Of a stretch of 64,000 bases of DNA, positions 28,432-31,537 are shown piece after piece. A program made the position numbers and the translations under genes. The notes beneath the pieces were generated by a model. That model searched no databases. It saw only the letters and a program-made list of their open reading frames with translations, and had not been told where the DNA came from. Within the stretch, counting starts at the first letter, position 1. Each line of letters starts with the position of its first letter. The DNA is from Sinimarinibacterium sp. NLF-5-8 (GTDB taxonomy: Bacteria; Pseudomonadota; Gammaproteobacteria; Nevskiales; Nevskiaceae): assembly GCF_010092425.1 (NCBI RefSeq), contig NZ_CP048030.1, positions 1,178,001 to 1,242,000 on the forward strand, given 5' to 3'.

Positions 28432-28986
28432 GTGGCGCTGTCACACGCCATCCTGGTCTCGCTGCTCGACCGCCCACAGTCTGGTTATGACCTCGCCAAG
28501 CGGTTTGACCAGACCGTGGGCTATTTCTGGAAAGCACGCCACCAGCAGATTTATCTGGAATTGCACAAACTCGCCAAACTCGGCTGGGTGCATTCCGAGA
28601 CGGTGCCCCAGCGCGCGCGCCCCAACCGCATCGTTTACGCGATCACTCCGCACGGTCAGCGCGCACTGGACGAGTGGCTTCGCCTGCCAACCGAGCCGCC
28701 CAACATCAAGGAAGAATTGCTGATCAAGCTGTTTGCCTTGAAGCCCGCCAACCTGCCGTTGCTGCTCGAAGAAACCCGGCGACGCCTGTGCGCGCACCGT
28801 CAGCGGCTTGCGCAGTATCAGCAACTGATGCAGCAGCATTATGCGCAGCCTGCGCAGCTGAGCCTGCGCAGGCGCGGCCACTATCTGGGGTTGCGGATGG
28901 GGATTCTCATTGAGCAGGCCACCCTCCAATGGTGTGAGGAGGCACTGCAATTGCTGATGCCCGCAGACCCGTCTCAAAGCGCCTGA
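28432..28986 (+). CDS. PadR family transcriptional regulator
   Basis: 184 residues, GTG start. N-terminal winged helix (about 1-75; GYDLAKRF, YLELHKLAKLGWV) and the C-terminal helical dimerisation domain (Vir_act_alpha_C type, about 85-175). PadR proteins usually repress genes for aromatic-acid or drug responses. It probably controls the flavoprotein gene in front of it. Its 3' end overlaps the araC-type gene on the other strand by 13 bp. Confidence 0.88.
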   Translation: MALSHAILVSLLDRPQSGYDLAKRFDQTVGYFWKARHQQIYLELHKLAKLGWVHSETVPQRARPNRIVYAITPHGQRALDEWLRLPTEPPNIKEELLIKLFALKPANLPLLLEETRRRLCAHRQRLAQYQQLMQQHYAQPAQLSLRRRGHYLGLRMGILIEQATLQWCEEALQLLMPADPSQSA

Positions 28987-30005
28987 CGTTGCCCATGCTC
29001 CGACGGGCTGTAGCCGGCGATCCGGCGAAATGCGCGGGCAAAATTGGCGCGATCGGTAAAACCCAGTGAATACGCCACATCGGTAACACTCATTCCCAGC
29101 GCCAGCCGTTCGCAGGCCAATTGATGCTGGATACGTGCAGACAGCGCGCGATAACTGGTGCCTTCGCGCGCAAGATAACGGTTCAGCGTGCGGCCCGACA
29201 TGTTCAGCGTGGCGGCCAACTCATCCAGCCCGGGCAGACCATCGGCCACCTCGTGCAGCGTCATCGCCACCCAATCGGCAAAATGCCGCCCGTCGCTGAC
29301 CTTCTGCACCATGTTGCGGCAACGCGCCTCGGCCAGCTTCAAGGCACTGCTGTCCGCCATTGCCAGCCTCAGGGCACGCGGATCACTCAAAATCCGCACG
29401 CGCACACCCGGCGTATCGCCAACATTGAAACGAACGGCAACATCCCCCAGCTCGCGGTGATAGCGCGCAACATGCGGCGGCTCGGCAATCGACAGTTCCA
29501 GTCGGCATGGTGGCCGCTGATTGCCGGTCAGATCGGCCACTTCCCGCAGCGCCGCAACACCAATGCCCTCCAGATGAAACGCCAGGCTGAGCCGGCTCAT
29601 GGCCGCGCGCGGGGTAAAGCGCATCTCGCCAAACTCGGCGGCACTGACATAGCGCATATCAAAACTGGGCATGATCAGCCGAAAATACTGCGCCTCGAAG
29701 CGCAGCGCCTGATCCAGCGTGGCGCTGTTGAGCATCGCAAAGCCAACAAAGCTGTGCGCCGTGGCACTCAAAAGTTTGCCCAGCTCAAATGCCAGATCAC
29801 TGCGCCCGGTACGATCGGCCAGGTGCTGTAACAGCTGATCGACCTGCCCTACCTTCAGCATCGCATCCGGATCATCCAGCCAGTGCGTCGACCACCCCAT
29901 TTCGGCCAGCACCGCCGCCATGTCGATCCCCTGCCGCGCCAGCACCTCGGCTACGCGCGCGTAGTAGCGCGCCGGAACCCGCAAGGCACTTCCAGAAATC
30001 GACAC
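28974..30005 (-). CDS. AraC family transcriptional regulator of alkane hydroxylase locus
   Basis: 343 residues from the GTG at 30005, chosen because a GGAGG ribosome site lies 5 bp upstream; a TTG at 30026 lacks one. The N-terminal half is the arabinose-binding-like domain of the OruR/ArgR-type AraC subgroup (MLNSATLDQALRFEAQYF). The C-terminal half holds the two helix-turn-helix motifs (LDELAATLNMSGRTLNRYLAREG; VTDVAYSLGFTDRANFARAFRR). It is divergent from alkB across 116 bp containing phased direct repeats, so it very likely regulates alkB and perhaps itself. Confidence 0.9.
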   Translation of the reverse strand: MSISGSALRVPARYYARVAEVLARQGIDMAAVLAEMGWSTHWLDDPDAMLKVGQVDQLLQHLADRTGRSDLAFELGKLLSATAHSFVGFAMLNSATLDQALRFEAQYFRLIMPSFDMRYVSAAEFGEMRFTPRAAMSRLSLAFHLEGIGVAALREVADLTGNQRPPCRLELSIAEPPHVARYHRELGDVAVRFNVGDTPGVRVRILSDPRALRLAMADSSALKLAEARCRNMVQKVSDGRHFADWVAMTLHEVADGLPGLDELAATLNMSGRTLNRYLAREGTSYRALSARIQHQLACERLALGMSVTDVAYSLGFTDRANFARAFRRIAGYSPSEHGQRQAL

Positions 30006-30017
30006 GGCATCCTCCAA

Positions 30018-30056
30018 TGGCGCCAAATGACTCCATCATGGCGCAAAATGACTCCA
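30018..30056. promoter_or_regulatory. Phased 18-bp direct repeats, candidate AraC operator for alkB
   Basis: TGGCGCCAAATGACTCCA (30018-30035) is repeated with one mismatch as TGGCGCAAAATGACTCCA (30039-30056). The start-to-start distance is 21 bp, two helical turns. AraC-type activators bind such same-face direct repeats. They lie just upstream of the regulator's ribosome site and 66 bp before the alkB start. The link to this regulator is inference from position and spacing. Confidence 0.65.
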
Positions 30057-30121
30057 CCTGGCCACTGCATACCGGCATGCTTGTTCCACGCTCAAAGCGT
30101 GTCTCATCTGGAGGATCAATC

Positions 30122-31537
30122 ATGCAAACCCAAACGCTTTCCGGCAGCACCGCAACGCCGTGGATCGACGCCAAACGCTACTGGTGGCTGCTCAGCCCGG
30201 CCATTCCCGCCGTGGGCCTCGCCTCGGTTGTCACGCCCTTGCTTGGCGGCCCGCTGTGGGCACTGTGGGCACTGCCGATCGTGCTGTATGTGTTACTGCC
30301 GATCATGGACGCACTCATCGGCGAGGATCGCGTCAACGCCCCCGAATCAGCCGTCAGCCAACTCGAAGACGACTTTTACTACCGTCTGATCGTCTTTGCC
30401 TACATCCCCGTGCAATACGCCACCACCATCGGCGGCGCCTATCTGGCCGCCACTGGCAATCTGCCGTGGTGGGCCATGATCGCGCTGATCGGCACCGCCG
30501 GCATCACCAACGGCGTGGCCATCAATACCGCACACGAGCTCGGCCACAAAACCAACGCACTTGAACGCTGGCTGGCCAAAATCACGCTGGCACCGGTGGC
30601 CTACGGACACTTTTTCATCGAACACAACAAGGGTCACCACAAAAATGTGGCCACGCCCGAAGACCCGGCCAGCTCACGCATGGGCGAAACCTTCTGGGCA
30701 TTCATCCCCCGCACCGTGATCGGCAGCGCGCGCTCCGGCTGGAACATTGAAAAAGACCGTCTGCAACGTCTGGGCAAATCGGTCTGGTCGCGTGAAAACG
30801 AAAACCTGCAAGCCTGGGGCATGACCGTTGTGATGTTCGGCGCCCTGACGCTGTGGCTGGGCAGCACCGCCCTGCTGTTCCTGATTGCACAGGCCATCTT
30901 CGGCTTCTTGCTGCTGGAAGTGGTCAACTACCTCGAACACTACGGCCTGTTGCGCCAGAAACTGCCGAGCGGCCGCTACGAGCGCTGCCAGCCGCGTCAC
31001 TCCTGGAACAGCAACCACGTTGTCACCAACCTGGTGCTGTATCAGCTGCAACGTCATTCGGATCACCACGCCAATCCGACCCGTCGTTATCAAGCACTGC
31101 GCCACTTTGAAGACAGCCCGCAACTGCCTTCCGGCTACGGTGGCATGATCGTCGTCGCTTACTTCCCGTGGCTGTGGTTCAAACTGATGGATCACCGCGT
31201 CGTGGCGCACCACGGCGGCGACCTCAGCAAAGCCAACCTGCATCCGGCCAAACGTGAAGCGCTGCTGCGCAAATGGGCACACGCCATGCCGCAAAACGTC
31301 GGCAGCAGCCGCCCCGTCGCCAGCGATGCCGTGGCTTCAAACGACGACGCCAGCGATCACCAATGCCCCAACTGCCAATACGTCTATCGCGCCGAAATCG
31401 GCTGCCCGCACGAAGGCTACCCTGCCGGCACCCTGTGGAGTGCGCTGCCGATGAACTGGCAATGCCCGCAATGCGCCGTGCGCGAAAAACCTGACTTTGT
31501 GGCCATCAGCCCGGATCAGGCAGAAGCAGTGGCATAA
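30122..31537 (+). CDS. alkB: Alkane 1-monooxygenase fused to rubredoxin
   Basis: 471 residues from the ATG at 30122 with a GGAGG site 7 bp upstream. Residues 1-395 form a membrane di-iron hydroxylase with several transmembrane helices and all histidine boxes: HELGH (138-142), EHNKGHH (167-173), LEHYG (H273) and RHSDHH (H312-H316), plus the AlkB-specific ATPEDPASS and NPTRRYQ. After a short linker, residues 413-460 form a rubredoxin with CPNC (415, 418) and CPQC (448, 451). Alkane hydroxylation normally needs a separate rubredoxin; here the electron carrier is covalently attached. The rubredoxin has Gln in place of the Gly after the second Cys and an extra Cys428. No rubredoxin reductase gene is nearby. 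Confidence 0.95.
   Translation: MQTQTLSGSTATPWIDAKRYWWLLSPAIPAVGLASVVTPLLGGPLWALWALPIVLYVLLPIMDALIGEDRVNAPESAVSQLEDDFYYRLIVFAYIPVQYATTIGGAYLAATGNLPWWAMIALIGTAGITNGVAINTAHELGHKTNALERWLAKITLAPVAYGHFFIEHNKGHHKNVATPEDPASSRMGETFWAFIPRTVIGSARSGWNIEKDRLQRLGKSVWSRENENLQAWGMTVVMFGALTLWLGSTALLFLIAQAIFGFLLLEVVNYLEHYGLLRQKLPSGRYERCQPRHSWNSNHVVTNLVLYQLQRHSDHHANPTRRYQALRHFEDSPQLPSGYGGMIVVAYFPWLWFKLMDHRVVAHHGGDLSKANLHPAKREALLRKWAHAMPQNVGSSRPVASDAVASNDDASDHQCPNCQYVYRAEIGCPHEGYPAGTLWSALPMNWQCPQCAVREKPDFVAISPDQAEAVA

Follow-up and report, generated by a model that had tools for sequence, protein, structure and literature searches.

AraC/XylS-type proteins are known as regulators of alkane oxygenases from the pairs AlkR/alkM in Acinetobacter ADP1 and APR1/almA in A. 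venetianus (PMC8784404, PMC11784139). For ADP1, the element reported to lie between alkR and alkM is an inverted repeat (PMC8784404), and APR1 of Acinetobacter is self-repressing while activating almA, with n-C32 as its inducer (PMC11784139). The XylS site at the Pm promoter is described as two direct repeats of 15 bp, each with the layout box A-N6-box B, with TGCA and GGTA as boxes and a monomer on each repeat (PMC5481539), and for GliR (PA3027) of P. aeruginosa one site is described as overlapping the -35 (PMC8151288). A 2022 review notes that the promoter-protein relations of hydrocarbon regulators still need much work (PMC8784404). The DNA sites of AraC-type alkane regulators are not well defined, and the locus analyzed here, together with its relatives, supplies a precise operator and promoter geometry for one group. 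We infer with high confidence, from sequence comparison, that a pair of direct repeats in this locus is the operator of a divergent AraC/XylS-type regulator that would activate alkB; the same comparison is the source of the binding, activation, inducer and autoregulation proposed below.

The window, meaning the whole 64-kb stretch of DNA that was analyzed, carries the repeats between a minus-strand AraC/XylS-type regulator gene and the divergent plus-strand alkB. The distal copy, TGGCGCCAAATGACTCCA, occupies positions 30018–30035 and the proximal copy, TGGCGCAAAATGACTCCA, positions 30039–30056, with a start-to-start distance of 21 and one mismatch. A first-pass annotation had described 18-bp direct repeats phased at 21 bp and differing at one base; the positions were confirmed, and the identity runs one base further to the left, yielding 19-nt repeats (30017–30035 and 30038–30056, one mismatch, period 21). 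The two copies have the common core TGGCGC-N6-ACTCCA and share an unusual ending, TGACTCCA. The N5 spacing given earlier for this core is wrong, as TGGCGC-N5-ACTCCA has no match in the genome (reversed control 1) and the true spacing is N6; the corrected 18-mer has exactly two exact genome matches, both of them these copies. When three mismatches were allowed for a single repeat, the genome search returned eight sites besides the two real copies, and the reversed control three. Within the 64 kb, this is the sole pair of 18-mers with at least 17/18 identity at spacings of 18–60 (found in two overlapping registers), and one comparable pair turned up when 40 dinucleotide shuffles of the window were taken together. 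On the plus strand, the distal core (30018–30031) comprises box A TGGC (30018–30021), six bases and box B TGAC (30028–30031), with the shared flank TCCA reaching 30035, and the proximal core (30039–30052) comprises box A TGGC (30039–30042), six bases and box B TGAC (30049–30052), with the shared flank TCCA reaching 30056. From one conserved tetrad to the next the spacing is 10, 11 and 10 bp, i.e. box A-N6-box B twice, which sharpens the earlier claim that both copies fall on the same face of the DNA.

The regulator gene (28974–30005, minus strand) encodes a 343-aa AraC/XylS-family protein with the C-terminal double helix-turn-helix domain HTH_18 (PF12833, 7.9e-17, 61.8 bits versus a cut-off of 33.6, above the curated cut-off) and the N-terminal Arabinose_bd domain of a subgroup (PF12625, 8.2e-24, 85.1 bits versus a cut-off of 27.6, likewise above). 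Its best-fitting start is GTG 30005, because a well-placed GGAGG (30015–30011, minus strand) precedes it and because the longer open reading frame from TTG 30026 would lay seven residues across the distal repeat. The start correction proposed in the first-pass annotation on account of GGAGG is supported, and with this start both repeats lie outside the coding sequence. In an 11-row regulator alignment V10 is the first invariant residue, and several rows begin only at about residue 2–8, so that the more upstream residues are not covered. The regulator scored 85.9 bits with the CypR model NF053784, below its curated cut-off of 500, and 92.6 bits with the GliR model NF050186, below its curated cut-off of 570. 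The alkB gene (30122–31537, plus strand, 471 aa) encodes an alkane monooxygenase-type membrane protein in which an FA_desaturase-type membrane domain (PF00487, 2.6e-33) is fused to a C-terminal rubredoxin domain (PF00301, 5.5e-12), both above cut-off. The NCBIfam profile search returned no match of the alkB product to an AlkB-specific model; from the domain layout and general knowledge of the enzyme, we take the gene to be alkB. The ribosome-binding sequence TGGAGGAT is common to both genes in inverted orientation, the Shine-Dalgarno region of alkB (30109–30116, plus strand) being an inverted copy of the regulator's own (30009–30016).

To describe conservation, each tandem was scored by the number of fixed positions matched out of 14 in TGNC-N6-TGAC-N7-TGNC-N6-TGAC, and a tandem was called at 11/14 or more. 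A regulator search at E values up to 1e-40 in 58 genomes of the family found 58 loci in 41 genomes and no hit in 17, and all 58 loci were read. The tandem is present at the regulator start in 57 of them; the sole exception, L068, is the most distant hit, with 36% identity. In 46 of the 58 loci alkB is divergently adjacent, and the tandem is present in every one of these, L034 having the lowest score at 11, while the remaining 12 have no alkB within the stretch read, implying that the operator follows the regulator more strictly than it follows alkB. Other families of the order contributed 12 more regulator loci, 11 of which score at least 11 (L145 scores 10), including all five with adjacent alkB. 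The operator reading, for which the first-pass annotation had proposed a comparison of the alkB upstream regions of relatives, is borne out, in that the tandem is kept in 51/51 loci of the order with divergently adjacent alkB (46 in the family and 5 outside it), although shared ancestry, the many close relatives and several near duplicates mean that these loci are not independent events. In the rest of the same loci, a score of at least 11 occurs at 57 of about 369,000 positions on both strands, a background rate that puts a chance tandem at about 4% or less per scanned upstream region, many of the background matches being reverse-strand or shifted readings of real sites. The genera represented are Solimonas, Hydrocarboniphaga, Sinimarinibacterium, Fontimonas, Nevskia, Algiphilus, Panacagrimonas, Abyssibacter and Stagnimonas. 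Among 28 named loci, most of which lie on the same contigs as loci of the genome set, 22 score at least 12.

Beyond the order, an even draw from the class gave a regulator match at E values up to 1e-45 in 3 of 274 genomes, namely the own genome, a further member of the order and a genome from another family of the class (L176, tandem score 13). No convincing tandem was seen at a Moraxellaceae locus with 40% identity (score 7) or at five Acinetobacter loci with 30–32% identity (scores 7–11), where the lone 11 is a poor match at +171. At these five loci the regulator relative and alkB are 1.3–1.8 kb apart on the same strand; we do not take them as orthologous, and they mark the limit of the tandem's distribution.

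Column frequencies over the 57 loci, inflated at the 14 scored positions because sites were picked as the best pattern match, are T 98, G 100, T 63/G 33 and C 100% in distal box A; T 91, G 91, A 100 and C 96% in distal box B, followed by seven weaker positions; T 86, G 98, T 51/G 44 and C 96% in proximal box A; and T 82, G 91, A 98 and C 93% in proximal box B. Columns that were not used in choosing the site are also conserved, with A at position 10 in 96% and AAA at 29–31 in 88–91%, and further downstream A at 36 (70%), G at 38 (82%) and C at 70 (70%) stand out as single columns. The two copies resemble each other within a locus. In 68 loci, reduced to 62 once identical operators were dropped, a distal copy matches its own proximal partner on average at 5.13 of 9 variable positions, versus 3.60 with shuffled partners, and none of 5000 permutations reached the observed value. 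The same holds within each of two groups, with 4.79 versus 3.65 in 29 loci and 5.42 versus 4.68 in 33 loci (0/5000 permutations each). We count this likeness as evidence that one protein would read both copies, and these repeats are very probably the regulator's landing site.

A candidate -10 element of alkB, CATGCT (30076–30081, plus strand), starts 24 nt past the end of proximal box B and has no recognisable -35. It matches 3/6 consensus -10 bases, and a scan for a consensus sigma-70 promoter found none. The most important two bases of the sigma-70 -10 element are the second-place A and the sixth-place T. In 43/57 loci, including 24/25 of L011–L035, this A/T pair has the same offset from the proximal repeat, and in 14/57 it is missing there; the next best offset has it in 11 loci, and the mean over 75 offsets is 2.3. 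In the column frequencies, the block 24–29 nt past the proximal TGAC reads C 77, A 81, –, –, A 61 and T 77%, then G 60%. Operator and alkB are between 57 and 252 nt apart, depending on the locus, so short spacing does not account for the fixed offset. Given a 17-bp spacer, a -35 would fall on the six bases right after proximal box B, TCCACC, which are unlike TTGACA. The fixed offset combined with the missing -35 points to class II activation, with the bound regulator probably replacing the -35.

In the mechanism that we propose, each repeat would accommodate one monomer, whose two helix-turn-helix motifs would recognize box A (TGGC) and, one turn of the helix further on, box B (TGAC), and two monomers would sit head-to-tail, two turns apart. 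The proximal monomer would end where a -35 hexamer would be expected to begin, 17 bp upstream of the weak -10 (CATGCT), and from this -35 position the inducer-bound regulator would recruit RNA polymerase and thereby switch alkB on. The inducer is probably an alkane or a related compound, an alkane being the obvious candidate given the response of APR1 to n-C32 (PMC11784139). The bound protein would probably also limit its own gene; autoregulation is likely, as a gap of 12 nt separates the distal repeat from the regulator start codon and the operator touches the regulator start region. Relative to aligned regulator residue 1, the operator starts at -13 to +52 nt in the 57 loci, with one case at +141.

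Other elements around the operator were considered as well. Many relatives have TTATGAC within the distal repeat, which reads CATAAT on the regulator strand, where the window has CATTTG; that the regulator's promoter lies in this repeat, with CATAAT on the minus strand, suits many relatives but not the window and was kept as a secondary idea. The inverted repeat CACGCT/AGCGTG that the first-pass annotation had placed between the repeats and alkB is present at 30087–30101 on the plus strand, near the predicted transcript start, and is not conserved. Any role for it, also as a conserved leader hairpin, was rejected; folding from 30088 on gave an unremarkable z of -0.5, and a search by folding across 45 leaders found no conserved leader hairpin (mean z -0.03).

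The further genome copies that the first-pass annotation had suggested looking for do exist. In the own genome, a single 3.2-Mb contig, the pattern TGKCNNNNNATGACNNNNNNNTGKCNNNNNATGAC has three exact matches. One is the window site, another belongs to a second alkB, which has a separate regulator (51% identity), and the third, at 1.585 Mb, adjoins a CypR gene (608 bits, cut-off 500) that is accompanied by ferredoxin and P450 genes. The opposite end of cypR has a fourth site, with one mismatch, and allowing up to three mismatches gives 30 matches versus 4 for the reversed pattern. The second alkB locus (L128, G000:C1:2118500-2126500, at 2.12 Mb) comes with an AraC-type regulator and a tandem operator of its own; in this second locus, read as L043, about 140 nt separate the operator from the aligned start of the regulator. 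Across the family genomes there are 31 exact pattern sites in 23/58 genomes and none for the reversed control, a count in which genomes with a working imperfect site appear as misses, since the exact pattern is stricter than a score of at least 11/14. All 31 adjoin a regulator of the AraC-type kind: 20 belong to alkB, 7 to CypR loci and 2 to a flavin monooxygenase, and the remaining two (L104 and L124) have none of these systems beside the operator. Among CypR-type loci, a count that excludes L185 as too short to score and takes in four loci from two genomes of other families of the class, the best tandem match scores at least 12 in 26/29, the misses being L182, L200 and L201.

Several of these loci have features of their own. 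The own-genome cypR (G000:C1:1585161-1586464; L127:2662-3965) has a near-identical tandem operator at each end, pointing outward, and the gene on its 3′ side is transglutaminase-like; a score of at least 12 is found on the 3′ side in 11 of the 28 CypR loci readable there, and a two-sided regulon at cypR is possible. L190 and L195, from genomes G043 and G033 of two genera, have an identical cypR operator and downstream sequence, which suggests horizontal transfer or a mixed assembly. In L130:1340-3987 and L114/L131, an AraC-type regulator and a flavin monooxygenase lie in tandem on one strand with the operator between them (TGGCGCAATATGAC in L130), possibly an AlmA-like system. The own genome also contains a four-copy array phased at 21 bp (L208:2943-3020; G000:C1:428942-429019), of the TTTGCATTTGATGACA type, TTTGCA..TGATGACA, which is iteron-like and perhaps derived from an integrated plasmid; as it has the same period, 21-bp phasing alone is no proof of an AraC site.

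Residue 275 lies in the first recognition helix (RTLNRYL) of the regulator, at a position that contacts DNA in MarA. Of the 68 loci, 30 have D here, combined in 28 cases with T as the third base of proximal box A; another 30 have N, where that base is G in 24, T in 5 and A in 1, the other 8 having neither residue; this covariation follows the split of the tree into two groups and amounts to few independent events. CypR proteins have A at 275 (one row is gapped), mostly with TGTC, the counterexamples being the CypR loci L190, L195, L205 and L206, where A at 275 goes with a proximal TGGC, and the two flavin-monooxygenase regulators have Q with TGGC. The covariation between residue 275 and box A is no more than a lead. 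Rather tentatively, one grammar, TGKC-N6-TGAC-N7-TGKC-N6-TGAC at a set promoter distance, might be common to the alkB, P450/CypR and flavin monooxygenase regulators of the order, with a residue-275 code (N/Q mostly TGGC, D/A mostly TGTC) separating the systems.

These data can be set against other readings of the repeats. The regulator might bind them but act mainly as a repressor, of alkB or only of its own gene, with a regulator promoter overlapping the operator. The small distance between operator and regulator start in the 57 loci would agree with this, as would the -10-like hexamer GTCATAAT that the distal repeat of many relatives reads on the regulator strand, and self-repression coexists with activation of almA in APR1 (PMC11784139). 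We nevertheless regard a mainly repressive role as improbable: a repressor site needs no fixed phasing to a weak -10 without a -35, an arrangement that suits an activator, the CATAAT hexamer is absent from the window, and autoregulation and activation are mutually compatible. Activation of alkB by the bound regulator is the reading that we prefer.

That the protein on the repeats is some other factor, a global regulator or another AraC paralogue, and not the product of the neighboring gene seems very improbable, given that 57/58 homologous regulators have the operator at their own start, even where no alkB is next to it, and that the third base of box A varies with regulator residue 275. Cross-binding would be possible, as the genome encodes two more regulators with the same grammar, one beside the second alkB at 2.12 Mb, the other at the CypR locus at 1.585 Mb. 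Next to no credence can be given to a chance repeat or to an iteron-like or recombination relic with no regulatory role; the four-copy TTTGCA..TGATGACA array in the same genome does illustrate that 21-bp phasing is not confined to AraC sites, but the window pair is the sole one of its kind in 64 kb, and its position and sequence are conserved over the order.

Among titles and abstract openings of the open-licence PMC literature, we found no description of this operator. Judged by sequence comparison, the predicted operator is a genuine but classical type of switch, with an arrangement kept in dozens of relatives, and its operator and promoter geometry can be used for regulon prediction and alkane biosensors. 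GliR resembles the window regulator in being of AraC type and in having motif A sites, e.g. CTGGCGCTATTCGCC, with TGGCG as in the window; it differs in its target genes, and PMC8151288 nowhere uses the term 'direct repeat'. Like AlkR and APR1, the window protein is of AraC/XylS type and a predicted regulator of an alkane oxygenase, but for ADP1 an inverted repeat is reported where a direct tandem is found here, and five Acinetobacter loci with a relative of the regulator lack the tandem. CypR, the AraC-type activator of the CYP153 alkane hydroxylase, has the same domain layout and the same operator grammar as the window system, whereas its boxes are mostly TGTC and TG(A/C/T)C followed by CCC, compared with TGGCGC/TGACTC in the window. 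The XylS repeats have a period of 21 and abut the -35. The window operator likewise consists of two direct repeats of box A-N6-box B with a period of 21, and it differs from XylS/Pm in its boxes, TGGC and TGAC, in the Arabinose_bd-type N-terminal domain of its regulator and in its target, alkB.
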